Shown piece after piece: positions 10,144 through 28,671 of a stretch of DNA of 64,000 bases; the stretch's first letter is position 1, and each line of letters begins with the position of its first letter. This DNA comes from Sedimentisphaerales bacterium (GTDB taxonomy: Bacteria; Planctomycetota; Phycisphaerae; Sedimentisphaerales; Anaerobacaceae). Under the pieces are notes generated by a model. It was not told the DNA's origin. It saw only the letters and a list, made by a program, of their open reading frames with translations, and did no database searches. The position numbers were made by a program, and so were the translations under genes. Location of the stretch: contig JAFGRL010000184.1 in assembly GCA_016935195.1 (NCBI GenBank), positions 1 through 64,000 on the forward strand, read 5' to 3'.

Positions 10144-10191
10144 TTTTTTTCCTTTTCCTCTTCAATTCCGATACTTTGTTATAGTTATGGG

Positions 10192-10210
10192 TGCGCACAC
10201 ACTGTGCGCA
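10192..10210. promoter_or_regulatory. perfect 8-bp dyad TGCGCACA-CAC-TGTGCGCA upstream of the LamG gene
   Basis: Direct reading of the inverted repeat; about 50 bp upstream of the LamG start, followed on plus strand by AGTTTTTT. Confidence 0.6.
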
Positions 10211-10459
10211 AGTTTTTTATGCCTTATTTGTGCCACTCTCCTCTTCGATGTCCATATCTCCCCCGGCCAGATAACAAATTATAGACTATTATAACTACAG
10301 GATTATTTCAAGTAAAAAATCTAATTATTTTTCACTTAAGGATAGCTCTCTTCATAATAGACGTCTTCTGATAGCATTTTTAAATGCCGTTTTTTGAATT
10401 GCGATTTTGGCAAAGATTGTGTAAAGTATGCTCGAAGCACAGGTATTTGTGTAACCTTG

Positions 10460-10504
10460 CGGGGTTTAGCTCAGTTTGGCTAGAGCGCCTGCTTTGGGAG
10501 CAGT
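10460..10504 (+). pseudogene. truncated tRNA-Pro (TGG), 5' half only
   Basis: CGGGGTTTAGCTCAGTTTGGCTAGAGCGCCTGCTTTGGGAGCAG matches acceptor 5' strand, D-arm and anticodon arm; no T-arm or acceptor 3' strand follows. Confidence 0.85.
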
Positions 10505-10642
10505 CTCGGTGGTTTCCTAACCACTTGCCAATAAGGTACTTACTATTTATGGCATAAGGACTTATGAACTGTTTTCAGACTCAAACTGGCACAATTTCTT
10601 ATCCGTCTTTCTGGCAAATGAGGTTGTCAGTAATAGGCGGAT

Positions 10643-11023
10643 TTACTTGAGGAATGCCAAGAAAATCCAAGCTATTATTGCTATTTGAAAGACAAAAACA
10701 ACCCAGAAAATTGTTTGGAATGAATGCTTTCTTGTTTTGTGTAAAGGGCTTCCAGCAAATAGAGCTAAGAAATGCAACACTCGTTCAGGTATTCGTAATA
10801 ACGATGTGTTGGAAGGAGCTTTATCTAGATCATACATTATAAAAGTTGTTATGTTTATTGAGATCAAATAAGAACAAAAAGAATTTATTTGGTGGTTGAT
10901 CCTGAAGTAACAGATGAAACTTAATACGACAAATCCAGTGATAGTGCCATATATCGCGTATGGAGATAACTGTTTCTCGCCCGGAATCACATTTCTTGCA
11001 GCCAAGCATGCATAATCTTGCAA
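10643..11023 (-). CDS. DUF1294-like small membrane protein (possibly degenerate)
   Basis: [46 protein letters not shown]-terminal start uncertain. Confidence 0.55.
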
Positions 11024-11427
11024 TCAACGACAGAACGAAGCTGCTAAGTGATAACGGCTCAGCTCTTGTCGGAAAAGACTTTGGTGATTACCTGGAGGCC
11101 AAAGGTATAGGGCATATATTTGCATCGCCGTATCATCCGCAGACCAATGGCAAGATCGAATGGTATCATCGCTCGATGAAAGAAAAACTATTTTTACATG
11201 TATGGAAATTACCGGAAGAATTAGAAAAAGAGATCGCCAAGTTTGTCAGCTGGTATAACAAATGCAGGCATCATGAAGCTATTGGTAATGTGACACCTGA
11301 TGATGTCTATTTTGGCAGGCGGAAAGAAATATTGGAAAAGCGAAAACAGTTGAAAGCCAAAACAATTCTTGAAAGGAAAAGAATTAATTGTAAAATCATT
11401 GAGGGCGGAGCTGAAATCGTCTCCTAA
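11023..11427 (+). mobile_element. truncated DDE integrase-core transposase (IS3-like) C-terminal fragment
   Basis: [48 protein letters not shown]...[24 protein letters not shown]-terminal part and first catalytic Asp missing. Confidence 0.88.
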
Positions 11428-11514
11428 TTTAAAGGTAAATTTGTCTCATTTTTGCTGAAGACGTACATATACAGGTATGAAATAATAACAATTATTGGAG
11501 AGTGAGGTAGGGTG

Positions 11515-11661
11515 ATGAGAAGAACAATTCTTGTGATGGCAGTGTCAAATATTGCTTGGGCTACTGTCGATACCTTTGGGACGGGAGTAAATCAATTCAC
11601 AATCGACTTTGTGAGTATTTCCGGTGACATGGTAAACGGAGGAGCAAAAGAACGATTGTAA
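11515..11661 (+). pseudogene. truncated N-terminus resembling planctomycete formylglycine-generating-enzyme-like secreted proteins
   Basis: MRRTILVMAVSNIAWATVDTFGTGVNQFTIDFVSISGDMVNGGAKERL* - signal-like start plus FG(T/S)G.NQF.I.FV motif, then stop. Confidence 0.5.
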
Positions 11662-11792
11662 GAAAAGTCTATCAGCTTAGCCTTTAAAATGGAATTCGAA
11701 GATACATAATAGTTGCGTGAAACAAACAGTTCTCATTATGGATAGGGTAAAAAATGAGGCGGGGATGTGGCTGATGGGTTTCACGTAGTGGA

Positions 11793-12323
11793 CTACTGGA
11801 GATTCGATTTGAGAGTTGATATGTGTATTATAGCATCAAGCAGATTCGGATTAGACGCATTCCTCTGAGTATAAAAACTTTTAACCAGCAAAAAGCGGCT
11901 TGAAGACCTTGTTTTTAAAAGAATGTTAACGAGCTGCTTAATCGTTAGATTTTCCAGTTCAATCTCAGCAGTAATCTCAAAATAATCTGAATCCAGCTTC
12001 AATACATCTTGTTTCATCATTGTGATTTTTTTTATCAGGCCGGAATCTTTGAACATAGACTCCAGAAAGGGAATCAGCTCAAATCCTTTTTCTTCAAAAA
12101 CAGCTTGTTTCTTCAGATAATGCAATCTGTCTTGCATCGCAAGATATTGTGCGCTCTTTATTCGAAGCTGCTGAAGCACAGCTTGTTTTTCCGGTATTAC
12201 TCGTTTGAGAGTCTCCGTGCGCTCAATTGCAGGTCTGACAGCAAAAATAAATGACAACCATAAAGCGACAAGAATCGCGAAACCGACTAATAACCAGTGT
12301 TCTCTGCGTGTCAACCGTATCAT
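11793..12323 (-). CDS. gspM: type II secretion system protein M-like (GspM/PilO-like)
   Basis: Short N-terminal TM then coiled coil; position after GspL-like gene, 4-bp overlap. Confidence 0.65.
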   Translation of the reverse strand: MIRLTRREHWLLVGFAILVALWLSFIFAVRPAIERTETLKRVIPEKQAVLQQLRIKSAQYLAMQDRLHYLKKQAVFEEKGFELIPFLESMFKDSGLIKKITMMKQDVLKLDSDYFEITAEIELENLTIKQLVNILLKTRSSSRFLLVKSFYTQRNASNPNLLDAIIHISTLKSNLQ

Positions 12324-13798
12324 TTTTGCTCCGACATTTCAAGCAACATAAAGATAGTAAAGTGTACTGATTCGTTTTTCGGCTCCCTTCGAATATCCTG
12401 GACATCCACAGATGAAAACTGTGATGCCTTCTGCAATTGTTGCTGCCAATCGTATACTGATTCAAATGATTGGGCGATCCCTTTCAGCCGTACCGATTCA
12501 GTGTCTATTAAGATATTGTTAATACTGATATTCGCCTGTTGAGGGATGCTTATGGTGATAGCACGAAGGATTTCCAAAGGACCAACACCAGATTCAGAAA
12601 TCGGGGCAAATAGCATGTAGGTTTTTCGCAGTATCTGCCACTTCTGCTCCAACTGGGCAAGAGGATTTACGATGTTTTTTTCCTCTGGAAGAACATGGAC
12701 AAAAGTTTGTCTGATTTCGTTCCTGATATTGCGGTATTTTGTCTCTAAATGTGCCAGTCGCATAAAAAGCCCTATCGGTGAGACAACTACAATTGCAGCA
12801 ATCAGTATGCCAAGAGTTGTGAGCTCCTTTCTTAGGTTTAAAGCTTGCTTCTCGCTTCTATTATCGACATTGAGAAAATTGACTCCTACGTTTTTCTCAG
12901 GTGCCAGAAGCCTCAAAGCAAGTCCCTGGGCCACGCATACTTGAGCATGGCCATTGTCGCCCGCCGTGGATTTTACCCTGGCGTAGGGATTAACAATAAT
13001 TGTTTCGCAACAGAGGCATTGTTCAATGGCAGTCTGCAACTCATTGGGAGTTTGGCCCTGGACGACCAGATAAATCTTAGTGTTCTGCTCAATCTCGGTA
13101 CCGAGAACTTTCCACCAAGTGATTCTTGCCTCGCGTGAGAAGGTCTCTATGAGTTGTTGCTGAGCTAAACCAGCATCGTTTTGCGAACGGGAGACAATCG
13201 GGATATTTCTAACGATCAAAATATCATTGTCCTTTGTGACTGCAAAGGTAAGATAGGAAGTATTTATATATACAATTATAGCAAGACCGACTGCAATTTC
13301 AGGATGATTGGTTACAATTGTAGCGTAAATCGCAAAAATATCTGCATCTACCAGCTTGGGATACATTTTTCCTTCGGCTAAGACGTTTAGCCGTTCGCGT
13401 AACGATTTTTTCGTAAGCGCTACTGTCAGCGCAGAATACTTTTCATCAGGCAGTTGGCGATATGAGTATGGCTGGGCAATTATCTCATCAGGTTTGACGG
13501 GAAAACTGTGTTCCAGAGCGGACATCTCACCTTTGTGGATTTGCTCCAGCGTGGTAGAGTCAATTTCTACATTTGTAAAAAAAGCACCATCGTGTGGGAT
13601 TCCCATAGCCACATCAGCGCGATGGTCAAATCCGTGTTGGCTAGTCAGGGACCTGAGTTTCTCTGATGGCGAATCTTTCTTTCGCCGTATTTGGGCAGTG
13701 AAGACTTTTTCAAGACAGAACTGGTCTAAGTCGCGTGCAATCTGCACCGCGCACACGTAGGAAGATGTCATGTCTATACCAATGCATCGCTTAACCAT
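12320..13798 (-). CDS. gspL: GspL-like protein, PilM-like actin fold plus PilN-like domain
   Basis: MVKRCIGIDMTSSYVCAVQIAR (PilM-like start) with C-terminal TM and PilN-like region. Confidence 0.7.
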   Translation of the reverse strand: MVKRCIGIDMTSSYVCAVQIARDLDQFCLEKVFTAQIRRKKDSPSEKLRSLTSQHGFDHRADVAMGIPHDGAFFTNVEIDSTTLEQIHKGEMSALEHSFPVKPDEIIAQPYSYRQLPDEKYSALTVALTKKSLRERLNVLAEGKMYPKLVDADIFAIYATIVTNHPEIAVGLAIIVYINTSYLTFAVTKDNDILIVRNIPIVSRSQNDAGLAQQQLIETFSREARITWWKVLGTEIEQNTKIYLVVQGQTPNELQTAIEQCLCCETIIVNPYARVKSTAGDNGHAQVCVAQGLALRLLAPEKNVGVNFLNVDNRSEKQALNLRKELTTLGILIAAIVVVSPIGLFMRLAHLETKYRNIRNEIRQTFVHVLPEEKNIVNPLAQLEQKWQILRKTYMLFAPISESGVGPLEILRAITISIPQQANISINNILIDTESVRLKGIAQSFESVYDWQQQLQKASQFSSVDVQDIRREPKNESVHFTIFMLLEMSEQK

Positions 13799-13847
13799 TG
13801 TTCTCTCTTTTGCCTATTTATACTCCGATACCCGAATGAGCGGTTTT

Positions 13848-14837
13848 TTAAACTTCTTTGTAAAGAATCACATCAATATTTTTGGTTTTCACGTTTTTTC
13901 GAAGTACTGCAACTATTTTGCAGGTAAAATTGTCAACAATTCCTTGCGACGTGACACGATAATATTGGTCTGGGTGGCTTACAGTGGCTGTCTTCTTAAT
14001 TGTCTGATAGATACTGTCTGTAACCAAAGGTAAATCCCGCAGCTCAGTTATGTTCTCAAAAGGCTTTAGCTGTCTTCGCTCAATAATCATTTCGGCCACA
14101 GAGGGGTCCTTTTCTTCCAAGAGACTCTGAATAACAAGCTTGGAGGCGGAATTGATATTGACTTTTCCGTCGCCTTTTACCGTTACGTAATCATATATGA
14201 GGTCGAATATATCCTGTTTCACGCCTTTGACTAAGAGCAGTTCTTCAATTGTCTCAAGCGAAGCATTCTTGCAAGTGTAAGGGGGCTTCAGACTGCTATA
14301 GTAGCTTGACTCTGCTCCGGGATTGTTGTGCTTTACAAAGGGCAGATACGTAACTTGTTCGTCATTGTCTGTCCAGTCGATAATTGATGGCACAAGGTCG
14401 TAGCTGATACGAGCCTGCCCAGAATTCTTTCGGTTTAACAGTTTTATGAGCTGAAGCAGTTGACCAATTCTGGTTTGATTTAGCCTGCCACTGGCATCTC
14501 TAAGCATGTTTAGATTAAATTTTCCATTCTCTTCGGAGATGGCCAACGAACACTGTCCATCACCTATAGGGAAAACAGTCTCTTGTGACAACAGGTCAGT
14601 CACATTGTTTCGTGTATGGCTATCCGAATTGGCCGCGATACTGGCGATAGCAATATTGAGCCCTGCTCTGGCGCAATTAAGTGCCTTTTCTGATTTTAAG
14701 AAACTGTTCGCAGAAGAGATGTTGGCGCGAGATTTGTAATTGAAACCAAGCACCAGCACATGTAGCAGGATGATCATGCAAAGGACAACTACAGCTATGA
14801 ATCCTTTTCGTTCTGTTTTTGCCTGTTTTATTCTCAT
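13848..14837 (-). CDS. gspK: general secretion pathway protein K
   Basis: Prepilin-like N-term GFIAVVVLCMIILLHVLVLGF; VPSIIDWTDNDEQ; helix-hairpin-helix VNINSASKLVIQSLLEEKD. Confidence 0.85.
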   Translation of the reverse strand: MRIKQAKTERKGFIAVVVLCMIILLHVLVLGFNYKSRANISSANSFLKSEKALNCARAGLNIAIASIAANSDSHTRNNVTDLLSQETVFPIGDGQCSLAISEENGKFNLNMLRDASGRLNQTRIGQLLQLIKLLNRKNSGQARISYDLVPSIIDWTDNDEQVTYLPFVKHNNPGAESSYYSSLKPPYTCKNASLETIEELLLVKGVKQDIFDLIYDYVTVKGDGKVNINSASKLVIQSLLEEKDPSVAEMIIERRQLKPFENITELRDLPLVTDSIYQTIKKTATVSHPDQYYRVTSQGIVDNFTCKIVAVLRKNVKTKNIDVILYKEV

Positions 14838-14852
14838 AACTTGTTAATAGCA

Positions 14853-15581
14853 TTATTTTGTAATGTTCGAACTGGCAAGGCAATTTACATACGCAGTAGT
14901 CGTGTAATGACATTGCCGATGGTTGTCATCTTGGCTTATAACAGTAATTCTTACTATACGCGGGAGGCTCTTACTGTCATTGAAATCCCACTTGGACAGC
15001 CACAGCTGTCCGTCAAAAAAGGCTAACTCGAAAGATACAATATTGGTTAAAATTGGTTGCCAATTTTTTACTGAGCCGACATTTGTAGCTGCCCCGATAA
15101 ATCGTTGCTCGCTTACGAAAAGCACACCCCTTGTTTTATCAAATTTGTAAACAACATCGAATAAGCCATTCTGTGGAACTTTGCCGCTTAATATTGTGTT
15201 CGTGGTTACTAGGTGTAAAACTTCCCCGCCGGGAATGTCGGGATTGCTATTCAAATAGTTGATCCTTCTTTTGGGTTCTGTTCTTTGCAGGGAGACTGAT
15301 TGGGCGGGATCAAAAGACTTAGCGTCTGTGTCGGAGAACGGTAACGTATCTTTTGCTGTGTTCACTGAATGTGGCGCGTAGGCGCACCGTATTTGTCGGG
15401 CCATTCGCTCCACTGTCTGGCGTAAGTATTGAAAGGGAACAATTGTGTTATCACAGGCTTCAGCGGACCTGGACGTCGCGGCAAAGCTGCCATGCAATAT
15501 AAAGAGAATCGTGACAATTATTGCAAGAGCCACGAGAATCTCAACAAGTGTAAAACTATCTTTTCTTGTTCTATTGCTCAT
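14853..15581 (-). CDS. gspJ: type II secretion pseudopilin GspJ-like
   Basis: Prepilin motif DSFTLVEILVALAIIVTILFIL; gene order. Confidence 0.8.
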   Translation of the reverse strand: MSNRTRKDSFTLVEILVALAIIVTILFILHGSFAATSRSAEACDNTIVPFQYLRQTVERMARQIRCAYAPHSVNTAKDTLPFSDTDAKSFDPAQSVSLQRTEPKRRINYLNSNPDIPGGEVLHLVTTNTILSGKVPQNGLFDVVYKFDKTRGVLFVSEQRFIGAATNVGSVKNWQPILTNIVSFELAFFDGQLWLSKWDFNDSKSLPRIVRITVISQDDNHRQCHYTTTAYVNCLASSNITK

Positions 15582-16005
15582 TCAATTTCCTGTTGGCAAC
15601 GTAAGTTAACATTTGTATTTGTTTTCTGCCCATCTCCTTTTTCCAACTGACGTCTACAAGTATTTTGCGCAATCCGCTAATATCGGTTTGGTCCAACTGG
15701 GACAGTTGCAGGTCTGCCACCTCAGTTCTCCAGTTGAAGCTCAAGTTGTCTTTCTCTGTAATTCCCGTTTCGATACCGACATGCGGATAACCACGGGCCA
15801 GCGTCTCAGCGATTTTATCTTCGGCTAATGAGATAGCATGGGAGGTGCTTTTGGCTATACCGATCATGCCGACACTTCTAATATGCAAACTCATCAGCGC
15901 TGTGAGAGCGATTGAGACCATCGCAAGGGCCACGACAACCTCAACGAAGGTAAGGCCGCCGGCGCGTTCTTTCTTTATTGCTGAGAGAGTATTCTTCTTT
16001 CGCAT
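15571..16005 (-). CDS. gspI: type II secretion pseudopilin GspI-like
   Basis: GGLTFVEVVVALAMVSIALTALMSLH prepilin motif; start taken at MRKKNTL. Confidence 0.8.
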   Translation of the reverse strand: MRKKNTLSAIKKERAGGLTFVEVVVALAMVSIALTALMSLHIRSVGMIGIAKSTSHAISLAEDKIAETLARGYPHVGIETGITEKDNLSFNWRTEVADLQLSQLDQTDISGLRKILVDVSWKKEMGRKQIQMLTYVANRKLNEQ

Positions 16006-16012
16006 ATTGTGC

Positions 16013-16489
16013 TCAGCCTTCAAAGTTCCAGCTTTCAATGTCAGCGTTATCTTCTGTGCCGCCATCCTCGCCGTCTTTTCCATAAGACTCCAGGTCGTAG
16101 TCTTTGCTGTGGATTGCCGGCGAAACATAGATATATTCGTTACCCCATGGGTCCGAAGGCACTTTGTCAAGGTACCCATCACTATTGTAGCCCTTTATCC
16201 CGGGGTCTGAAACGAGCACACCAAGACTTTCGGAGGTTGTGGGGAAGCGGCCTGTATCGGTTTTGAACAAAGCCAGTGCTGATTCGATATTGCGTATATC
16301 GATTTTGGCCTTCATCCTTCGAGCTTGCTCTGGCCTTTTTAATATTCTCGGCACAATTACTGTCGACAAAAGGCCGAGAATCAGAATCACAATCATAAGC
16401 TCAATTAAAGTAAAACCGATGGCCCGCGATGGCGCAATCCCCATAGACACTGCTGGAAACGCTGGTTTTCGTTCCTTTTCTTCCATCAT
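16013..16489 (-). CDS. gspG: type II secretion major pseudopilin GspG
   Basis: GFTLIELMIVILILGLLSTVIVPRI; DTGRFPTTSESLGVLV; LDKVPSDPWGNEYIYVSP. Confidence 0.95.
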   Translation of the reverse strand: MMEEKERKPAFPAVSMGIAPSRAIGFTLIELMIVILILGLLSTVIVPRILKRPEQARRMKAKIDIRNIESALALFKTDTGRFPTTSESLGVLVSDPGIKGYNSDGYLDKVPSDPWGNEYIYVSPAIHSKDYDLESYGKDGEDGGTEDNADIESWNFEG

Positions 16490-16504
16490 CTTATTGACTT
16501 TCTG

Positions 16505-17689
16505 TTAAATTAGCTGATTTATTTCGAATATAGGCAGTAAAATGGCCATCACTATGAAACCTACTATGCCTCCCATAAGCAGCAGTATGGCAGGTTCAAG
16601 CAATGAGGTGAGCGTTTTAGCGGTTATCTCAACCTCATCGTCGTACATATCTGCGATGTTTATAAGGCCTGTTTCTATCTCACCGCTGATCTGCCCCGTT
16701 GCTATTATGTGAAAGACAATGGGTGGAAACAAACGTGTTTTTTGTATTGCGTTTGCGATATTATCTCCTCTGCTGACAAGTCCCTTTACAGAGTCTAAGG
16801 CTGCTGCGATAAAACTGTTTTGAACCACACGTTTTGCAATTTCAATGGCATTGAGTATGGGAATTCCGCAGATAAGAAGCGTTCCCAGTGTTCTTGTCAG
16901 GCGTGCTATCTCTAATTTAAGGAAAAGACTGCCAAACAACGGCAGCTTCAGCTTGTAGCGATCCACAAACAATCTACCCTCTTTGGTTTTGTAAGCAGCT
17001 GCTATACCGAACAAGGCCACGCAGGCAACAATGACTATTGACACACAGTACGTTTTCGTAAAGGCACTCGCTGAAATAAGTAGTCTTGTTGGCCAGGGAA
17101 GAGTACGATTCATTTCAAGAAAGATTCCAGTGATGGTCGGCACCACAAAAGACAAAAGAAACACCACCACACCTATAGCAACGACAATCATCATTAGCGG
17201 ATAAGCGACAGCGAGCTTCACCTTGGCGACAAGGTGAAGGCGTTTCTCCATCATTTCCGCCAGGTGCAGTAACGTTTCTTCCAAAGCGCCACCTGCTTCT
17301 CCTGCTGCCACCATATTGACAAAGAGGTTTGAGAAGACGTCTGGGTGTTTTGCAAGTGCATCAGCCAGTGTACTTCCGGCATTAACATCATCTGCAACCT
17401 GTTCTATAATTACTGCTATCGGGTCTTCCCCAGAGCCAAAGCGGGCTATTTTAGGCCCAAGAATGCTTTGTAGTTGTTCTGCGAGCGCACGCAGGGCAGG
17501 TACGAGCGGCATGCCAGCATTCAGCAGTGTTGCCAACTGGCGTGTCAAACTGCATATTTCCCTTGTGCTGACCCTTCTGAGAGTGTCTCGCTTATGGGGC
17601 CGTTTCTTCGCATCAGGCATATCTTTGCGTGCCACTCGACGCTTCGGCAGTGCTCTTGTGTTCGGCAATTTACATTCAACTTCTGACAC
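16505..17689 (-). CDS. gspF: type II secretion inner membrane protein GspF
   Basis: TRQLATLLNAGMPLVPALRAL; VNMVAAGEAGGALEETLLHLAEMME; SLLEPAILLLMGGIVGFIVMAILLPIFEINQ. Confidence 0.95.
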   Translation of the reverse strand: MSEVECKLPNTRALPKRRVARKDMPDAKKRPHKRDTLRRVSTREICSLTRQLATLLNAGMPLVPALRALAEQLQSILGPKIARFGSGEDPIAVIIEQVADDVNAGSTLADALAKHPDVFSNLFVNMVAAGEAGGALEETLLHLAEMMEKRLHLVAKVKLAVAYPLMMIVVAIGVVVFLLSFVVPTITGIFLEMNRTLPWPTRLLISASAFTKTYCVSIVIVACVALFGIAAAYKTKEGRLFVDRYKLKLPLFGSLFLKLEIARLTRTLGTLLICGIPILNAIEIAKRVVQNSFIAAALDSVKGLVSRGDNIANAIQKTRLFPPIVFHIIATGQISGEIETGLINIADMYDDEVEITAKTLTSLLEPAILLLMGGIVGFIVMAILLPIFEINQLI

Positions 17690-19283
17690 GTTCCATTACC
17701 TCGAATCTGCTTGAACAATCCTGTGTGACTCTGCAAACTTCCTCAAGTGTAGTTTCACCAGCCAGGGCTTTTCGCAGGCCGTCTTCTCGCAAAGTGCTCA
17801 TACCCTTTTCGATAGCAATTTCTTTAATAACTTGTGACGTGCTTCGCTTTGCTATTAGTTCTTTTATATCGTCATCGATCACTAAGAGCTCAAAGAGCCC
17901 CGTTCTTCCCAAGTATCCTGTGTTAAGACAGGTTTCGCAACCGGCTCCTTTGTAGAACTGTGTCGGCGTGGTCGGTATTGTTCCATTTGTGTTCAACGAA
18001 GAGAGTATTTCCTGGTCCGGTTCGTGCAGCCTCTTGCAGTCTGGGCAGATAATCCGTGAAAGCCTCTGCGCCATAACTGCCACGACTGATGAGGAAATCA
18101 GGTAAGGTTCCACACCCATATCTATCAGACGGGTCATCGCTGAAGCTGAATCGTTCGTGTGCAGAGTGCTTAGAACTAAATGACCTGTCAAAGAAGCCTG
18201 GATTGCGATTTGGGCAGTCTCGACATCACGAATTTCTCCTATCATAATTACATCAGGGTCCTGCCTTAGGATGTGACGAAGACAATTGGCAAACTTAAGA
18301 TTAATTTTCGGTTTAACCTGCATCTGGCCAACGCCTGGTAGTTCATACTCAATGGGATCTTCAACCGTAAGGATATTTCTTTCTTCGCAGTTAAGTTCAT
18401 TAATCGCTGCGTAGAGTGTCGTTGTCTTACCGCTACCGGTAGGGCCGGTGATAAGGATTATACCGTGCGCTGATCTAATCACATTTCTAAAGCGGCGGAG
18501 TACTTCCGGACAAAATCCTATATCATCCAAATCCAGTTCACCGCTTCCTTTGTTCAGTAACCTAAGTACTATGCGTTCACCGCCCAGTGTCGGAATCACC
18601 GAAACTCGAATATCTACGAACTCCTGGCCAATTTTTACACGGCTTTTGCCATCCTGTGGCAATCTTCGTTCAGCGATGTTGAGATTTGCCATGATCTTAA
18701 GTCGTGACAGTAGCGCTGCCGTCTGCTGCTTTGGCAAACTAAGCACTTCGTGCAACACGCCATCAATCCGAAAACGTATTCGCATCTCGCTTTCGTACGG
18801 TTCCATGTGAATATCACTTGCCCGACTGTGAAGCGCCTGAAAGAAAATCTTGTTAACTAATTTTATCACCGGTGCCTTATTGGCGATGCTAAGCAGGTCT
18901 TCAGCCTGGCCGTGAATAAAAGCTGAATCATTAGATTCGCTTTCAGTTTCCGGTAGTTCCCACACGTCGGAATCTTCGTAATCGCTATTTGAAGCGGCAC
19001 TGTGATAATAGCACCGACTTATGGCTTGCTCTATTGCGGATGTGGGGCAAATAACGCGTATGCAAGCTTGGCCGAGGATACTCAAAATAGCATCATACGC
19101 TTCTACGTTAAGTGGGTCAGCCAACGCTATCGCAATTTGGCCATTATCCAGTGTGATTGGGATGGCGCACTGCCGTTTTAGAAACTCAAGCGGAAGATTT
19201 TTTACGAGTTCCGGATTCAACTGCTGTGGCGATATGGTTTTCAAACGCATTTCGCCTGGCTGTTTTGTCATTTGTTCACTCAT
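17676..19283 (-). CDS. gspE: type II secretion ATPase GspE
   Basis: ILITGPTGSGKTTTLYAAI; VEDPIEYELPGVGQMQV; LRQDPDVIMIGEIRDVETAQIAIQASLTGHLVLSTLHTNDS; CPDC/CETCLNTGYLGRTGLFELL. Confidence 0.97.
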   Translation of the reverse strand: MSEQMTKQPGEMRLKTISPQQLNPELVKNLPLEFLKRQCAIPITLDNGQIAIALADPLNVEAYDAILSILGQACIRVICPTSAIEQAISRCYYHSAASNSDYEDSDVWELPETESESNDSAFIHGQAEDLLSIANKAPVIKLVNKIFFQALHSRASDIHMEPYESEMRIRFRIDGVLHEVLSLPKQQTAALLSRLKIMANLNIAERRLPQDGKSRVKIGQEFVDIRVSVIPTLGGERIVLRLLNKGSGELDLDDIGFCPEVLRRFRNVIRSAHGIILITGPTGSGKTTTLYAAINELNCEERNILTVEDPIEYELPGVGQMQVKPKINLKFANCLRHILRQDPDVIMIGEIRDVETAQIAIQASLTGHLVLSTLHTNDSASAMTRLIDMGVEPYLISSSVVAVMAQRLSRIICPDCKRLHEPDQEILSSLNTNGTIPTTPTQFYKGAGCETCLNTGYLGRTGLFELLVIDDDIKELIAKRSTSQVIKEIAIEKGMSTLREDGLRKALAGETTLEEVCRVTQDCSSRFEVMERVRS

Positions 19284-21559
19284 TTTTGCACCGACTTTTG
19301 GTCACCTTCCGGCCGATTAAGTGCCATTGAACTGTTGCTGCTGTCCTCTGTTTTTCCGAGCTCATCCAGTGCAGGCTCTACTTCTTTTTTCTTTTGTTCG
19401 GTTATTTGGTCTAAGTCTGCTTGGCTGCTCATAACATATGGTGTTATGAATATAAGCAGGTTTGTCTTTTGCAGTCGGTCTCTCTGGAATCTAAACAAGC
19501 CACCAACCAGTGGAAGATCGCCCACCAGGGGAATCTTTTTCTCGATGCTAACTTTGTCATCTCGAATAAGGCCACCGATTACAATAGTGGAGCCGCTGTT
19601 CATCGAAACAACTGTCTGCGCCTGCCGCTTGGCTGTCGTAGGCGTATTGACCGAAGTCCCCGTGACACCTTCAATGAGTTTTGTAAACTCGCTGTCAACT
19701 TCAAGTCTCACAAGTCCGTTTTGACTAATGTGTGGTGTTATCTCCAGGCTAATGCCAACATCCTTGTAATCGAAAGTATCGATCACAGTAGGCGTAATGA
19801 AATCTGTTGTTTCGGTAATTCTGGATTCCACGACGAACGGGATGTTTTCACCCACTATTATTTTCGCCTTATTGTGATTGGAAGTTAAGATATGTGGCGT
19901 CGACAGGATGTTTACACCTGATGTCTTTTCTAAAGCGTGCAGTATTGTCCCAATTCTGACATTTGAGCCCAACCCTTTCCATGAGCCAACAGCCAAACCT
20001 TCAAGGTCTCCATTAGCGAAATCAACTCTTGGGCCGAAATTGGTCGCACCGAAGAATCTGACACTGCCTGCGACGGCTTCATCAAGTGTGGCCCAGTCGA
20101 TACCTATTTCCTTCAGGCTATCCTCGCTAACCTCCATTATGAGCATTTCAACCAGAACCTGCTCGCGAACGATATCGAGCTTTTCTACGATCTGAGCTAT
20201 GACTTCATAGTCCTGCGCCGAAGCAGTGATAATCAATGCGTTTGTGCCTTCGTCTGCAGTAACCTGAACATTCTGTGCTGATTCAAGTGCACCTGCGATA
20301 CTCAGATTTGCCACCGCACCGGCAAGTGATTCGGCTACATCTTTGGCTTGTGCGTTCTTTAGGTACACAACGTGAACATTATGCGATTGGCTCGGTCGCT
20401 GGACATCAAGATCTATTATCAGTCTTTTTATTGCATAAGTATCCCGAGCATTAGCGACGATAATAAGGGAATTAGTTCTCAAATCAGGCAGAATTTTTGT
20501 CTCTGTGTCGGTCTGTGGTACTTTGGGCCCACGTTTAATCTTTGAAGAGCCAAGCTTGCTTTTTTCCATAATGCGTGTTATCTGCTCGCTTAGCACTTGC
20601 GCAGAAGCATGCTCTAACCCAACTACGGTAACCTGTTCCTCAGAACTCACTACGTCAAATTCCTGAATAATCTTGGCAACATGATGGATGCTTGAAGATG
20701 TATCTGTAATCAAAATCGAATTCGTTCTCGGATAAGTCGCCATGTATGCGCCAGTACTCAGAAGTGGTTTAATGATGTGACTTACCTCTTTTGCGTCAGC
20801 ATGCCTCAACGGAATAATCTGAGTGAGAATAGAATCACTCCGTAGGATCTCTGAGGGATTATTGCCAACTCGTACCTGTAGATTGTGCTTGGTCGCCTCT
20901 GCTCTTGGTATTATTTTTACCAGGTCCCCGGCAGGGACGGCTGCATACCCTTTCACTTCAAGAATTGATTCTAGGACTCCATATATCTCACGAAGAGGTA
21001 TCTTCGTAGGAGACATCACTGTGACGGAGCCGTTGACTTTGTCGTCAACGACAAAATTAACCCCGGTTATTTCACCGATGGTTTTGAGCACAACCCGAAT
21101 ATCCACTTGGTCAAAATTTATGGATACAAGCTGATCAGCCATACTTGGTTTATCGAGCACGGGCAGCTTCGTAGTTGCCTGGGGAGATGTCTGTTTTTGA
21201 GTGGGCGCACTGGTTTTGGTCGTAGTTAGGGGCTCTTTGCTGGGCGCCTCAGGGGCTGTAGAAAGAACCGGAGATGTCTGTTCGTTCTCTATAGGCAGGC
21301 TCGCACTGGCTTGCCTTAGCTGCTCAGTGCGTTTTGCGGCGATACCTTCGGCCCGCAGCATGTTGTTGAGCCCGATACTCGGATTAGGATAAAGTTCTTG
21401 AGTTGCTTGGGTAGCAGGGTGCAGCTGATGATCTGTCGCTGTGCCAAAGTCTGACTGACAGCCCGCAAGATTGATGAAAAGTATGTATGTAAGACAAAGA
21501 AAAGTCTTTAAAAGCATGTTTACTTTTTGGCTGTTTGTGACCAAATCGTTTGTTGTCAT
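19280..21559 (-). CDS. gspD: type II secretion secretin GspD
   Basis: Repeated N-domains, VEMLIMEVSEDSLKEIGIDW, secretin ending GLIRDDKVSIEKKIPLVGDLPLVGGLFR...TNLLIFITPYV. Confidence 0.97.
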   Translation of the reverse strand: MTTNDLVTNSQKVNMLLKTFLCLTYILFINLAGCQSDFGTATDHQLHPATQATQELYPNPSIGLNNMLRAEGIAAKRTEQLRQASASLPIENEQTSPVLSTAPEAPSKEPLTTTKTSAPTQKQTSPQATTKLPVLDKPSMADQLVSINFDQVDIRVVLKTIGEITGVNFVVDDKVNGSVTVMSPTKIPLREIYGVLESILEVKGYAAVPAGDLVKIIPRAEATKHNLQVRVGNNPSEILRSDSILTQIIPLRHADAKEVSHIIKPLLSTGAYMATYPRTNSILITDTSSSIHHVAKIIQEFDVVSSEEQVTVVGLEHASAQVLSEQITRIMEKSKLGSSKIKRGPKVPQTDTETKILPDLRTNSLIIVANARDTYAIKRLIIDLDVQRPSQSHNVHVVYLKNAQAKDVAESLAGAVANLSIAGALESAQNVQVTADEGTNALIITASAQDYEVIAQIVEKLDIVREQVLVEMLIMEVSEDSLKEIGIDWATLDEAVAGSVRFFGATNFGPRVDFANGDLEGLAVGSWKGLGSNVRIGTILHALEKTSGVNILSTPHILTSNHNKAKIIVGENIPFVVESRITETTDFITPTVIDTFDYKDVGISLEITPHISQNGLVRLEVDSEFTKLIEGVTGTSVNTPTTAKRQAQTVVSMNSGSTIVIGGLIRDDKVSIEKKIPLVGDLPLVGGLFRFQRDRLQKTNLLIFITPYVMSSQADLDQITEQKKKEVEPALDELGKTEDSSNSSMALNRPEGDQKSVQK

Positions 21560-21603: not shown

Positions 21604-22626
21604 TTATTGCAAATTAAACGAGAACCTCATAGTCTTATCGTTTCGCAATATCTCTATGTCCATATTTGCTCGAGACCTTGCTTTCTTAAAAACTTGGTAA
21701 GCCTTCTGTTTGCTGGTCAATCGGTGACCATTAACTACTCGAAGAACATCGCCGTTTCTTAAACCAAGGTCTTGTGCTGCTTGCAAGTTATCCAAACTTG
21801 TTAACCGTAGTCCTTCCACTTCACCATCGATGATACAAGGTGTAATGACGGCCTCATTCAATATTTTTTCCGCACATTTGAGTTTTGTTTTTACCTCGGC
21901 CACGCTCGTTTCGATCGATGTATGATTTTCTGCGGCATCACTTACTTCAGCAGAAGTTTCAAACGAAAGTAGTGGGGTATTACTTTCGTTCGAGTCGGTC
22001 AACTGAGTCGTATTAAGCTTCAGCGTTTCTCTTCTCCCATCATAGAGCAGGACTATGGCATCTTTCTCTATCGCTTCAATCCGAGCACCGGCAACTGTTT
22101 GGCCGATCTTGTACACGTCGATGAAATCGGATTTTGGGTCCTTTATGATAGATCTTGCAACTGCTGGGTCCCCGGCGATTGTCCCCAGCAATATCAACGC
22201 TAAACACTCTGAAGCCGGGGTCTCAAAGCCGAATGACTTTGCTATTGACTCCCAATTACCACAGTCTATTATTTCATCGGCGGTGACAAACGGATTTCTC
22301 TCTACGATTTCTGTGTCGTATATAAGCACTGAATCTGGTTGGCCGACTGTCACAACTGAGTCGTTGTTGAGTTCGCCCCGTGCTGCGGTTGGGGTCAGAC
22401 TTTTTTCAATGTGCTTTGGCAATAGCACAGTTCTGACGGTCACTAATCCGAGCACAATGACAAGTGCTAATTTATTTAAATATAAGATGTTACGGGAGTA
22501 CAACTTGTGCATCCTTTCCTTGTCCAAACGCATATTCTGCACCTCAAAATCTATCGTCTGACCACTTACTTGACTTAAGCTGGAAAATGTCAGATTAAGC
22601 CTTGCGGGAACAGTCTTTGTGCCCAT
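21604..22626 (-). CDS. gspC: type II secretion protein GspC with PDZ domain
   Basis: N-terminal TM, ILLGTIAGDPAVARSIIKD, YKIGQTVAGARIEAIEKDAIVLLYDGRRETL, PDZ-like LGLRNGDVLRVVNGHRLTS. Confidence 0.85.
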   Translation of the reverse strand: MGTKTVPARLNLTFSSLSQVSGQTIDFEVQNMRLDKERMHKLYSRNILYLNKLALVIVLGLVTVRTVLLPKHIEKSLTPTAARGELNNDSVVTVGQPDSVLIYDTEIVERNPFVTADEIIDCGNWESIAKSFGFETPASECLALILLGTIAGDPAVARSIIKDPKSDFIDVYKIGQTVAGARIEAIEKDAIVLLYDGRRETLKLNTTQLTDSNESNTPLLSFETSAEVSDAAENHTSIETSVAEVKTKLKCAEKILNEAVITPCIIDGEVEGLRLTSLDNLQAAQDLGLRNGDVLRVVNGHRLTSKQKAYQVFKKARSRANMDIEILRNDKTMRFSFNLQ

Positions 22627-22706: not shown

Positions 22707-23459
22707 TTAGGTAAGCGTTGCCAACATCACAAAATAACACGTGTTTGATAGCCCATGAAACAAGATCGGTGCCAATAGAGATTTGGTCCGAATAAAAAGC
22801 CAGCCGAAAATCAGACCAGGTAAAAAAGTCAGTACTGATGTTATTGTTCCGTGCACAATGACGTGAGCAACTGCAAAAACCGCAGCTGATAACACTATGC
22901 TTGTCCACGGCTGCAGCCTGCGTTTGGAGGGCATTATAGTGGTTCTCAATCTTAGAATGTTATTTTGTACATAGCCCCTGAAAAATACTTCTTCAGCTAC
23001 TGCAACATACATGAACTGATATAATATCAACTGAATCCATTCTTGATTTTTAGGTATCACAGCCTGTAAAGGTAATTGGAAACCATATAATTTTAGCAAC
23101 CACAGACCACAAAACACGGGCGGGAGAATGATAATACTGGTCCAGCCGATTATTTTGAGTGCAGACAGAACTTGCCCTGTGCTGAAACCTATGTCAGGAA
23201 GCTTTCTCTTTTTAATCATGGTAGGGATTGTCCCCGCAGCCACTAAGATGCCAGGGGACAGAAGCCATGTCCATCTGAAAGGGGAACCTTGAGCCAACAA
23301 CTTAATTACCAATGTGGCAACAATTGTTATCAGAACGGTTTCAATTAGCAAAGGTGTGTCGAACTGGCTCGGTCTGTTTCCGACCAGTTGAACAGACTCA
23401 ATCGTCGGCGATATACAGACAGCGTCTGGCTGGGCAAATAGATAATCTTTTTTTAACAT
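22707..23459 (-). CDS. CPBP (Rce1/CAAX-like) glutamic intramembrane endopeptidase
   Basis: EEVFFRGYVQ (EExxxR), FAVAHVIVHG (FxxxH), FHGLSNT (HxxxN) in a multi-TM protein. Confidence 0.93.
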   Translation of the reverse strand: MLKKDYLFAQPDAVCISPTIESVQLVGNRPSQFDTPLLIETVLITIVATLVIKLLAQGSPFRWTWLLSPGILVAAGTIPTMIKKRKLPDIGFSTGQVLSALKIIGWTSIIILPPVFCGLWLLKLYGFQLPLQAVIPKNQEWIQLILYQFMYVAVAEEVFFRGYVQNNILRLRTTIMPSKRRLQPWTSIVLSAAVFAVAHVIVHGTITSVLTFLPGLIFGWLFIRTKSLLAPILFHGLSNTCYFVMLATLT

Positions 23460-26400
23460 ATATTTTCTTTAATAGCCCGAATTCTTCTTCTCCTGGCATC
23501 CCGCCGTTTCAGAACTGCTATTACAAGAGCCAATCCAATATAAGGCAGTGCGAATTCCAGTATATTACCTTGGGGATTGCCAGAGACCGAGCAACCTCCA
23601 CCACCACCACTGCTAGCTGCGGCGGCAATGCCACCAACAAAAAACTGCGTGAAGTGCGTTGTTTTGAAACGCAGAGCACACAAGGTTGGGGAGATTACTA
23701 CGTTTTCAACGTCGGTTATCCCCTGTTGGCTAAGAGCACAGGTTAGTGGATTATACCAGTACACGGAAACTAAGTTGTCAGAGCTGTGAACCTCATATGG
23801 TATCGTAATCGTAACGGGCTCGGTAAAATCTATCCCGCTGGGACCGAACTCATATAGTGTGCTAAGATGCTCGACAGTGAGTTTCTGCGGATTTTGTACT
23901 TCTGAGATAGTAATCTTTACATCACAGGCATATGCTCCTGCAGGCACAGTGACCGATACGTCACCTGCACCGCTTATAGCTGCCGGATCGGTCCCAACAA
24001 TTGCGCCTGACGAAGCGGAGACAACCTCAGATGCCAGCAAGTCAGAGGCCGTGAAGGTACTTCCAGCATAGTAAATATCCCCGGTTATGTTCCTGCCGTC
24101 GGTCCATACCAAGTACGGATGGCCATACATATCTGTCGCCATTGCCGGTTCAGCCTGGTTAGCATTGGTGCCGTTATCACCTACGAAGATATTTGTTTGA
24201 GAGCTGGAGCCTATTTCAACGAAGTACAGATCTGTGTCTGCGTTGCGCTTGTCCTGCCAACAAGTAAATACTCTCAGACCGTTTCCAGTACTGCCTGTAG
24301 TAATAATGGCCGGGGCAACCTGATCTGCGCCAGAACTGTCATCGATAATGCTGCTGCCGCTTAAGGATGTCGCAGGCAAACCACTCGAAGATGCGTAATA
24401 TATATCGCTGTTGCCGGCGGTGTCGTCGACCCACAGGAAATGCAAAACAGAGCCTGCAGCCTCGGTAGCAATCGCGGGAGACGACTGATTACCAGCCTCA
24501 CTTACTATGGGTACGTTTGTCCACGGACCGTTATTTGAGGCGGCTGCGTAAACGTCCTGTGAACCACCTCTGTTATCTGTCCATAAAACGTAAATCGTGT
24601 TATCGGTGTCTGCAGCAATAACAGGGGCGCTCTGGTCGGAACTGTCTGAGGTTATTCGTGAAACTGTCTTAGTCAGAAAACCGTTGGTTGAAGAGGCTAT
24701 ATATATATCTTGATTACCATGACGGTTGTCTTCCCAGGCGACATATACGCTGCTCGGAGACAAGCCGTCAACAGCTATAGCGGGATTGGTCTGGTGGTCA
24801 TTTGAATCGCTGACTTTTGTCTCTGTTGACCAGTTTATTCCATCAGTCGAGGTTGATATGTAAATATCCCAGTTTCCATGTCTGTTATCCTGCCATGCAA
24901 CATACAGCTTGTCCTCAGCATCCAAAGCAACCACTGCATTGCACTGATCAGCGCTACTGTTTGTTAGCTTAATACTGCTGCCAAAATAGTTTTCTCCTGC
25001 GACAAGCATGCTGACATATACGTCTCTATCCCCTGTCGGCCCTGCATGCCAGGTTACCCAGATATTTCCCCTCCTGTCACAGACGGTTTGAGCTTTTCCG
25101 CTGCTCAGATTAAGCAAGTCTGAACTCACGTGTCTATTTTCGCTAAACTCACGCATCACGGTGCTAAAGGAATAGACATGCTGGGTCATCACATTTCCAA
25201 CAAGGTCTGTGGCATCCACCTTAATGGTTATCGCCTGGTCGAAGTCAAACAATTCATTGGGTTGGTAGACAAATACATAATCGGCTGTAGTGCCGGTTCT
25301 GCGGCAACTACCATATTGGCTGGCATAGTGATCCGTATCGCCTGTGTAAATAGTGTTGTTGTTAAGTTTAATCGTTACGGAACTGTTATCTATACGTTCT
25401 CCGGCATCAACAACATGTAAAAGTACCAAGTTATCTCGAAGAACCTGTACCGCATCTGCCGCTGGCGAACAATTCGTAACGCTGGGAGCTGTTTGGTCCG
25501 GCTGCTCGGCAGCAAAGCTTGCCGTGACGGATTTATCTGCATTCATAGTTATTGAGGTAGGATTGCTACCTCCGGATAAGTCGCCCGCCCAGCTTATAAA
25601 GAGGTATCCTAAATCAGGGACCGCCTGTAAAGTTACGGTTTCGCCATCATTGTAGTTGGTGCTACTAGGCGTTTTAGTTACCGTGCCGTTGACTGCTGTT
25701 ATATTTAGGGTGTATGTTTCGGCAATAGGGTCATCAAAGCCCTTGTCTGCGGCACTGATGGTTATCGTAATAGTCTCAAAATCCTGTGCCTGACCATCGC
25801 TGGCATAAAATGTGGCCTGGTGCGTTCCCACCTGGTCTTGGCTGGGTGTCCAGCTGAAAGTTTGCCCTGAGAACGCTGCACCACTTGGCAAACCTTGGGC
25901 AGAGTATGTGATTGTATCTCCATCTGCATCTGTTGCGGTTACTTGAAAAGTCAAAAGAGTATTCTCGAGTCCCGATTGATTTCCGATACTCTGCATTACC
26001 GGAGCGCTGTTGCTTGATTGACCTGCGGCATACTCGTACGCGCCAAGATCAAAGCCTGCGCCTTGTGGTCTCGCAGCCCTTTCAATATCAACAGCAGGAG
26101 CCGACAGGCTGCTACCTGCATCTATTGCAGGACTTCCTTGTTTATGGCGTAGATTGAGACTTTGACTATTCTGCCACTGAACAAAAAGGTCGTCCCAGTT
26201 GTAGTTATCAAGATCCAAATTGTGGTCTTGCTCAATCCCTCCACCACCACTCCAAGAATGCGCCATGTTATTTCTAATAATGCAATTCTCAGGATAACCA
26301 AAACCATTATTGACAAAAGTTATAGTTGGAGGGTCACTATCATTGCTATCATGAAGATTCATCACAATATTATTTAATACCTTGACTCCATTGGGATCAT

Positions 26401-27502
26401 CAAATTTGATCCCTATATTGTGCGAAGTAAGAATCACGTTGTTTTCTATTGTTATATTGTGATAATCACCTCCTTCATTGAATGCCCCAATGCCCTGTAC
26501 CGTCCCTGCCCAGCCCCAAGCAGGATTATCATAATCCAAAATAAGATTACCACTGATCTCCATGTCATGGAAATATCCGGTAAGCAGTTGAATTGCATCA
26601 CAATGACGACTGCTTTGACCGATTGGGGTTGGAAGCCTTATAACATTCTTGATTGTATTGTACCGGATATTCCCTCCTCCAGGACGTATACCATCATGAC
26701 TAAAATACTCAATAAGATTGCCCTCAATTAATGGATACCACCCAGTAGTTATACCATAGCCAACGTTCCAAATATGGTTATTCTTGATGGTTGTGTAGCC
26801 TACACTATCCATACGAATACCACCGGAAAGGCTATACCACAAATCCTCGGTGCTCCAGGAAGAAATATCACTGGCAGAGAAGATATTGCAATCCTCAATC
26901 CAAATGTGCGAGCTATTACCATAGGTGTTATGATTCTGGACTGAGAAAAGGCGGTCGCCAACCTTGGACTCCTGGTTGTATTCGGGGCTTATATTCAAAC
27001 CAATAAATTTCCACTTACTAACTGATTCTAACTCGATATTCCTGAGCTTCGGGGTGTGTCCAGTTTGAGCCGCAATTGTTATGTATTCTGTATTGTAGCC
27101 GCCAGTGTAATCTATCCTTCCATGGTAACCGTTCCTTAATAGTATTGTGTCTCCCGATTTAACAGGAGCGCCGAGGTTTTTGATTTGCCCTGTATTTGTA
27201 TAAGTCTCAATTAATCTATTGTCAAAAACCGCCTGCAGAGTGCTCCATGGCTTATCATAGGTTCCGTCATTGTTCAGGTTTCCGTTTGCTGGATCTACGT
27301 AATAGGTTTGTGCCGACGTATTACTGGGCAAGACCGCGCTTATTGCAGGCACCAAGCAAAGGATGAGCAATCTCGCCATGCGCAGGCTATCACGCATTAG
27401 GAAACAAATTATCACTTTTTTGCTCTTAGTACACATAAACTTATCGGCGGTCGCATCGGCTCGGGTGTCTCTACCCGGAATTACCCGCTTCAACCTGCTC
27501 AA
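23453..27502 (-). CDS. secreted multidomain surface protein: right-handed beta-helix, Ig/cadherin-like, Bacterial-repeat domain, propeller-like repeats, C-terminal Cys-type sorting tail
   Basis: 1349 aa; signal peptide MARLLILCLVPAISAVLPSNTSAQ; YYVDPANGNLNNDGTYDKPWSTLQ; GTVTKTPSSTNYNDGETVTLQAVPDLGYLFISWAGDLSGG; C-term SSGGGGGCSVSGNPQGNILEFALPYIGLALVIAVLKRRDARRRR; true start may be an internal Met. Confidence 0.9.
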   Translation of the reverse strand: MSRLKRVIPGRDTRADATADKFMCTKSKKVIICFLMRDSLRMARLLILCLVPAISAVLPSNTSAQTYYVDPANGNLNNDGTYDKPWSTLQAVFDNRLIETYTNTGQIKNLGAPVKSGDTILLRNGYHGRIDYTGGYNTEYITIAAQTGHTPKLRNIELESVSKWKFIGLNISPEYNQESKVGDRLFSVQNHNTYGNSSHIWIEDCNIFSASDISSWSTEDLWYSLSGGIRMDSVGYTTIKNNHIWNVGYGITTGWYPLIEGNLIEYFSHDGIRPGGGNIRYNTIKNVIRLPTPIGQSSRHCDAIQLLTGYFHDMEISGNLILDYDNPAWGWAGTVQGIGAFNEGGDYHNITIENNVILTSHNIGIKFDDPNGVKVLNNIVMNLHDSNDSDPPTITFVNNGFGYPENCIIRNNMAHSWSGGGGIEQDHNLDLDNYNWDDLFVQWQNSQSLNLRHKQGSPAIDAGSSLSAPAVDIERAARPQGAGFDLGAYEYAAGQSSNSAPVMQSIGNQSGLENTLLTFQVTATDADGDTITYSAQGLPSGAAFSGQTFSWTPSQDQVGTHQATFYASDGQAQDFETITITISAADKGFDDPIAETYTLNITAVNGTVTKTPSSTNYNDGETVTLQAVPDLGYLFISWAGDLSGGSNPTSITMNADKSVTASFAAEQPDQTAPSVTNCSPAADAVQVLRDNLVLLHVVDAGERIDNSSVTIKLNNNTIYTGDTDHYASQYGSCRRTGTTADYVFVYQPNELFDFDQAITIKVDATDLVGNVMTQHVYSFSTVMREFSENRHVSSDLLNLSSGKAQTVCDRRGNIWVTWHAGPTGDRDVYVSMLVAGENYFGSSIKLTNSSADQCNAVVALDAEDKLYVAWQDNRHGNWDIYISTSTDGINWSTETKVSDSNDHQTNPAIAVDGLSPSSVYVAWEDNRHGNQDIYIASSTNGFLTKTVSRITSDSSDQSAPVIAADTDNTIYVLWTDNRGGSQDVYAAASNNGPWTNVPIVSEAGNQSSPAIATEAAGSVLHFLWVDDTAGNSDIYYASSSGLPATSLSGSSIIDDSSGADQVAPAIITTGSTGNGLRVFTCWQDKRNADTDLYFVEIGSSSQTNIFVGDNGTNANQAEPAMATDMYGHPYLVWTDGRNITGDIYYAGSTFTASDLLASEVVSASSGAIVGTDPAAISGAGDVSVTVPAGAYACDVKITISEVQNPQKLTVEHLSTLYEFGPSGIDFTEPVTITIPYEVHSSDNLVSVYWYNPLTCALSQQGITDVENVVISPTLCALRFKTTHFTQFFVGGIAAAASSGGGGGCSVSGNPQGNILEFALPYIGLALVIAVLKRRDARRRRIRAIKENIC

Positions 27503-28002: not shown

Positions 28003-28671
28003 ATGGCTGTACAGAGTAACACAGAAAGAGAGGTGTCTGTGGTCCACTATACACTGACGAAAACGCTGGGCAGAATTTCAGCACCAGTAATGTGGCTGAT
28101 TGCGATTAGTCTGGTAATACTATCAGGAATAGGATATCGTGTCCTGGCCTCGCGGTTGAGGCTTGTTGTTAACACTCCGATCAACCTGCCAGTACCTCTG
28201 GATACTTTGCCTGTGAAGATAGGTCATTGGACTGGTACTAATGTACCAGTCCCTGAGAATATTCGCCGTATAACCGGAAATGATGACTGTCTAAACCGTT
28301 CATATTCCAATGAAGCCACCAAGCAGCAAGTGCATGTATACGTGGCTTATACCGCTCGACCGCGAACAATGCGGGGGCATAGACCACAGGTATGCTATGT
28401 GGCTGGCGGCTGGGTACATGATAGTAGCGACGCAAGCGAAGTCGTTTCCAGTGCCGGCGAGAAAGTGCCCTGTCTGATTCATCGCTTCCACAAACCTGCC
28501 CCTGATCGCAGTGAGATAGTGGTATTGAATTACTATATTGCCAACGGCCGGATTATAAATGACAAAAGCGTTTTCGCTGGTGTTGGGTGGCGGACGCCAA
28601 ATATCCACGGTGACGTTGCGCGGTATGTAGCTCAGGTTCAGATAAGTTCGGTATCCGAAAGCTCCGTTTGA
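28003..28671 (+). CDS. exosortase-associated EpsI family protein
   Basis: LPVKIGHWTGTNVPVPENIRRITG, SYSNEATKQQVHVYVAYTARPRTMRGHRPQVCYVAGGWV. Confidence 0.88.
   Translation: MAVQSNTEREVSVVHYTLTKTLGRISAPVMWLIAISLVILSGIGYRVLASRLRLVVNTPINLPVPLDTLPVKIGHWTGTNVPVPENIRRITGNDDCLNRSYSNEATKQQVHVYVAYTARPRTMRGHRPQVCYVAGGWVHDSSDASEVVSSAGEKVPCLIHRFHKPAPDRSEIVVLNYYIANGRIINDKSVFAGVGWRTPNIHGDVARYVAQVQISSVSESSV

Follow-up and report, generated by a model that had tools for sequence, protein, structure and literature searches.

The window, by which we mean the whole stretch of 64,000 nucleotides analysed here, is part of a 2.86-Mb MAG (G000, contig C44). It carries on the minus strand a run of genes in which a large surface protein, hereafter SURF (27502–23453), is followed by a CPBP protease (23459–22707) and by the T2SS genes gspC, D, E, F, G, I, J, K, L and M (22626–11793). 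The preliminary description of this DNA had reported the first two ORFs and a 7-bp overlap between them; both coordinates are confirmed and the overlap reads ATGTTAA, while the T2SS operon downstream on the minus strand (gspC to gspM) had been overlooked. The features are as follows.

23453..27502, minus strand: SURF, tailed surface protein (Pfam/NCBIfam, start codon, N-termini of homologues, AlphaFold model, conservation in 35 homologues)
23453..23608, minus strand: tripartite tail of SURF (tail alignments; modelled as a disordered Gly linker and one helix)
22707..23459, minus strand: CPBP/Rce1-like glutamic intramembrane protease, myxosortase-like (Pfam/NCBIfam, motifs, model)
21604..22626, minus strand: gspC-like, 80 bp past the CPBP gene (GspC_delta 103 bits, cut-off 150; TIGR01713 73 bits, cut-off 101.6)
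19280..21559, minus strand: gspD secretin (TIGR02517 485 bits, cut-off 351)
17676..19283, minus strand: gspE ATPase (TIGR02533 650 bits, cut-off 630)
16505..17689, minus strand: gspF (TIGR02120 356 bits, cut-off 424)
16013..16489, minus strand: gspG major pseudopilin (TIGR01710 142 bits, cut-off 89)
15571..16182, minus strand: gspI-like minor pseudopilin (TIGR01707 30 bits, below cut-off; the listed GTG probably lies upstream of the true start)
14853..15581, minus strand: gspJ-like minor pseudopilin (TIGR01711 25 bits, below cut-off; position)
13848..14837, minus strand: gspK minor pseudopilin (NF037980 120 bits, cut-off 130)
12320..13798, minus strand: gspL-like (TIGR01709 33 bits, below cut-off; position)
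11793..12323, minus strand: gspM-like (position and size only; no family match)

The assignment to a T2SS follows from GspD, GspE and GspG, which exceed their equivalog cut-offs, and from the canonical order of the remaining components; C, F, K, I, J and L score below their own cut-offs and M is unmatched, all in the canonical place. A scan for promoters and terminators gave a signal no better than that of shuffled sequences. At other loci (L041, L044, L045, L050, L054, L057, L061) a gap of ~180–210 nt between the CPBP gene and gspC recurs and is possibly an internal promoter or RNA element, and the tailed protein and the CPBP lie between two gspC-like genes in L055 (6239–7138, 10501–11412) and L112 (6429–7328, 10692–11591). 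Elsewhere in the window, a PEP-CTERM protein is encoded at 9364–10143 on the minus strand (TIGR02595, 20.7 bits, cut-off 16), so that the genome has a second C-terminal sorting signal. A cluster of exopolysaccharide genes begins with an EpsI-like exosortase-associated protein at 28003–28671 on the plus strand (43.4 bits, cut-off 42.8), near which no exosortase was identified.

SURF and its C-terminal tail

The SURF ORF had been read as a protein of 1349 aa; its coordinates stand, but that length depends on an upstream TTG start that is probably too early. The ATG at 27397 gives a plausible signal peptide (N-terminus MRDSLRMARLLILCLVPAISAVLPSNTSA, followed by Q), which makes about 1314 aa the likelier length; a similar hydrophobic N-terminal segment is present in nearly all homologues. 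Pfam and NCBIfam recognize an N-terminal right-handed beta-helix-like region, then an Ig-like domain (He_PIG) and an InlB B-repeat, and the N-terminal domains vary among tailed members of the family (Ig, beta-helix, laminin G, NHL). The C-terminal part before the tail is a conserved, beta-rich, propeller-like region of ~700 aa (35 homologues compared). In the AlphaFold model of residues 595–1349 this beta-rich fold extends to about residue 1292, beyond which lie a disordered Gly linker and a single helix. The modelled conserved region resembles a sialidase-type propeller at low TM-score only, a likeness that supports no claim of enzymatic function.

The protein ends in SSGGGGGCSVSGNPQGNILEFALPYIGLALVIAVLKRRDARRRRIRAIKENIC. 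Its tail consists of a Gly run (G1299–G1303), Cys1304 (TGC at 23593–23591), a hydrophobic segment (~1314–1331) containing LPY, and the basic cluster KRRDARRRR. The GGGGGC motif, hydrophobic segment and Arg cluster had been described correctly, but the end had been set at RRRR, beyond which IRAIKENIC continues. We compared the window genome with 98 relatives of the same family and order (Phycisphaerae, Planctomycetota), 99 genomes in all; the named relatives with a matching locus are Phycisphaerae/Sedimentisphaerales bacteria of the Planctomycetota. From this set 36 distinct tails were collected; an alignment covered 22 tails. The Cys is invariant in all 36; a Gly run precedes it, and S or A, a hydrophobic residue, and S or A again usually follow. 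Next come a helix, in which a Pro is conserved (as LPY or VPY in most tails), and a basic end.

Tails occur in 28 of the 98 relatives, one to three per genome, all on the SURF family. A genome-wide look for further tails, proposed earlier, detected in the window genome that of SURF only, a count that is provisional because the MAG is incomplete (96%, 199 contigs); the other GGGGC sites in this genome are no tails. We also rejected the idea that many unrelated proteins within a genome share the tail as a modular tag, the second tails being on paralogues of the SURF family. As all tailed proteins are homologues in a single family, simple orthology could account for part of the tail's conservation. 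At L195 (G013:C548, 414–3440) the tail lies inside a longer ORF, in which the SURF C-terminus and tail run in frame into an RHS-repeat protein; either a genuine fusion or a chimera from assembly of the MAG could explain this.

The protease and its known relatives

The CPBP protein matches PF02517 (Pfam, Rce1-like) with 73.1 bits against a cut-off of 22.4. The EExxxR, FxxxH and HxxxN motifs of the preliminary description are present (E156-E157-V-F-F-R161, F195xxxH199, H235xxxN239), and E156, E157, R161, F195, H199, H235 and N239 are invariant among the CPBPs of 27 relatives. Its AlphaFold model (pLDDT 86) has one clear PDB neighbour, MmRce1 (4CAD; probability 1.00, with a modest TM-score of 0.49 and E of 0.046), and fold and motifs together place it with Rce1. 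On Mrt_core (NF040914) it reaches 86.1 bits, below the cut-off of 100, and for the three remaining CPBPs of the genome the scores are 35, 35 and none; all 27 relatives' CPBPs match this model at E ≤ 0.001 (best 8e-27). The scores on MrtX, MrtC and MrtP (45.8, 85 and 101 bits) lie under cut-offs of 180, 195 and 250, and the same applies to MrtJ (NF033192; 61.4 bits, cut-off 75) and MrtS (71.1 bits, cut-off 130). Judged by sequence scores, the enzyme is nearest to the myxosortases, yet outside every named subclass by the curated cut-offs. In the tree, the CPBPs of the operon loci form one supported clade (33 rows, 99/90).

The tail was likewise run against the sorting-signal HMMs, as had been suggested. 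With MYXO-CTERM (TIGR03901) the window tail scored 7–8 bits (E 3.7–7.7), short of the cut-off of 20; it gave no match to JDVT-CTERM (NF033191) at E ≤ 10 and none to the Synerg-CTERM and GlyGly-CTERM models. JDVT-CTERM weakly matches 11 of 22 tails (best E 0.0013); the tail is nearest to JDVT-CTERM without matching that model.

In Myxococcus xanthus, MrtX cleaves MYXO-CTERM, Cys residues are required, and the T2SS exports the proteins concerned (PMC11980579). The MrtX/MYXO-CTERM systems (also MrtC, MrtP) share with our locus a CPBP enzyme with the same catalytic motifs, a tripartite tail with an invariant Cys, and Sec-exported surface proteins, which M. xanthus exports by its T2SS (PMC11980579). 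They differ in that the window tail reaches only 7 bits with the MYXO-CTERM HMM and the enzyme falls under the MrtX, MrtC and MrtP cut-offs, in having dozens of substrates where we find one to three, and in that enzyme and substrate here lie in a T2SS operon. The described MrtJ/JDVT-CTERM pair comprises two genes only, in beta- and gammaproteobacteria (PMC11980579), and resembles the locus in having the enzyme gene beside a single target and a tail with a Gly run and Cys. Our genes could accordingly be a plain JDVT-CTERM/MrtJ pair that existing models miss through divergence, as the one-enzyme, one-adjacent-target arrangement, the weak matches of 11 tails and an MrtJ score of 61 bits against 75 would allow. 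We consider this unlikely: the MrtJ cut-off is missed, the window tail has no JDVT-CTERM match, MrtP, MrtC, MrtS and Mrt_core all score above MrtJ, and the T2SS operon that follows here is absent from the described pair.

Two further systems were compared. MrtS/Synerg-CTERM shares the Mrt core, and its tail is of the Cys type, as is the window tail, but the MrtS cut-off is missed (71 bits against 130) and Synerg-CTERM is unmatched. The rhombosortase/GlyGly-CTERM system of Vibrio cholerae has a similar Gly-rich motif, helix and basic end, and its substrate VesB is a T2SS substrate retained on the surface (PMC6219818, PMC13393428); its enzyme is a rhomboid serine protease, unlike the CPBP glutamic protease found here, and GlyGly-CTERM does not match our tail. 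Of the readings compared, the best one is a new variant of the myxosortase systems, dedicated to its substrate and encoded together with a T2SS. In the literature searched, which did not include the main in silico study of myxosortases from 2024, no description of a Cys-type sorting class in Phycisphaerae was found.

Conservation and probable joint loss of tail and protease

In 17 of the loci fetched from the window genome and its 98 relatives, the genes for the tailed protein and the CPBP and gspC stand one after another. By hand count, gspC directly follows the CPBP gene in 25 of the 29 loci with sequence there; the two do not adjoin in G039, G093, G028 and G036. SURF and CPBP overlap or sit close in most loci (spacing –41 to +173 bp in those measured, 1.2 kb in L046). 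Besides the window genome, 30 of the 98 relatives have a close CPBP match (the copy in G034 is split). Across the 99 genomes, enzyme and tail are both present in 26, the CPBP alone in 5, the tail alone in 3 and neither in 65 (Fisher p about 1e-15, a statistic that ignores phylogeny and is inflated by relatedness), a shared distribution of the kind looked for in a Cys-type sorting system. It had been pointed out that the pairing would be coincidental if the tail were unique to this protein or if the CPBP clade were widespread in genomes lacking such tails; neither is the case, since 28 relatives carry the tail and the clade is almost confined to tailed genomes. A phylum-wide sample of 392 genomes contained no close CPBP member outside the order and five distant matches (76–83 bits). 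Membership in T2SS operons was also considered for the distantly related CPBPs of Aquificota and rejected, no such operon being seen in L124, L129 and L130, and only a GspK-like gene in L176.

Where SURF is kept without the CPBP, an intact tail is absent (G063, G080, G005, G072). In G063 and G080, gspC comes immediately after SURF, CPBP and tail are both lacking, and the SURF C-termini are hydrophilic; G005 has a tail-less SURF homologue and lacks both the CPBP and this T2SS; in G072, decayed relics of the tail (GGGYSMN, with the Cys read as Tyr) and of the CPBP (ILFHGLAN) lie beside a persisting gspC-G. Because G063, G080 and G072 share a GspD clade (98/95, with weakly supported branching inside it) with G083, G086 and G092, which keep CPBP and tail, joint loss of the two is the simplest reading for these three genomes. 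Of the three genomes with a tail only, G058 has the expected place missing from its assembly, and the tail match of G015 lies where a contig ends; in G049 the tailed SURF directly precedes gspC, with no CPBP between, and a second tail lies at a contig edge. L197 of this genome (G049:C21, 5722–6844) shows a gspM fragment immediately after gspC, the scar of a deletion in which most of the T2SS is gone and the tailed protein stays. The CPBP occurs without a detected tail in G007, G009, G023, G028 (some of these loci end at contig ends) and G034. In L065 (G034:C132, 8554–12946) the CPBP is split by transposase-like ORFs and the gsp genes are kept; no intact surface protein was found in the G034 genome.

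These losses bear on the possibility that the tail is a mere C-terminal membrane anchor, with the CPBP serving something else, for instance as a T2SS component, and the operon simply co-inherited. The restriction of the tail to one protein family fits this account, as does the position of the CPBP beside gspC in 25 loci. It seems to us quite improbable, however: in G063, G080 and G072, loss of the CPBP with the T2SS kept goes with loss of the tail, a plain anchor needs no invariant Cys with fixed neighbours, and the CPBP scores with sorting enzymes. That tail and CPBP form a functional pair is, on the comparative sequence data, very probable. The earlier proposal, a relative of the myxosortase/JDVT systems encoded beside its substrate in a planctomycete, is supported and strengthened by co-occurrence, conserved order and joint loss.

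A candidate surface-display operon

Experimental proof of cleavage by a myxosortase dates from 2025 only, and how the cleaved protein reaches the surface is so far described by a model. Tail, enzyme family, gene order, co-occurrence and joint loss are read directly from the genomes; for cleavage, lipidation, export by the T2SS and anchoring we infer from MrtX/MYXO-CTERM of M. xanthus. On both grounds we propose, with a probability of roughly 0.7, a dedicated surface-display operon made of SURF, its CPBP sorting protease and a T2SS. SURF would be exported by Sec through its putative signal peptide. The C-terminal helix would hold it in the inner membrane, with the Gly run and Cys1304 periplasmic and the Arg cluster cytoplasmic. 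Cys1304 would probably be lipidated, perhaps by Lgt, after which the adjacent CPBP would remove the helix, cutting next to the Cys. Mature SURF would then cross the outer membrane via the downstream T2SS and be kept on the surface by its lipid. By analogy with M. xanthus, export of the SURF product by this T2SS is probable, and Cys lipidation is slightly favoured. Two Lgt-family genes are present in the window genome; no acyltransferase is encoded within the operon.

The CPBP could instead cut the tail for free release, shedding SURF rather than anchoring it by a lipid. CPBP cleavage requires no transpeptidation, and the tail-less relatives beside the T2SS may be fully secreted. Nevertheless, Cys variants and mrtX mutants of M. 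xanthus are defective in surface anchoring (PMC11980579), and if release were the goal, loss of the tail alone would suffice; we hold shedding to be very unlikely.

Beyond the planctomycetes, in a single case, a Nitrospira MAG (L128), a separate set comprises a subtilisin-like protease with the tail GGGGGGCSIG..VKRRTN, T2SS genes and a convergent CPBP (10191–12491, minus strand; 9555–10082, plus strand; 13272–20063, minus strand). If the operon reading is true, then with this linkage coupling to a T2SS would become more widely the rule among Cys-type tails.

With enzyme, single substrate and export machine side by side, the locus would offer a compact system that can be tested in E. coli, and one that bears on the coupling of C-terminal cleavage, modification of the Cys and export by the T2SS. 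It also comes with a natural deletion, in which protease and tail disappear together and substrate and T2SS remain. The operon may tentatively be viewed as self-contained, a T2SS with its own tagged substrate and its own protease, in which protease and tail are a removable module, lost while substrate and T2SS stay. If so, in lineages that lose protease and tail, a protein once anchored to the surface may become freely secreted.
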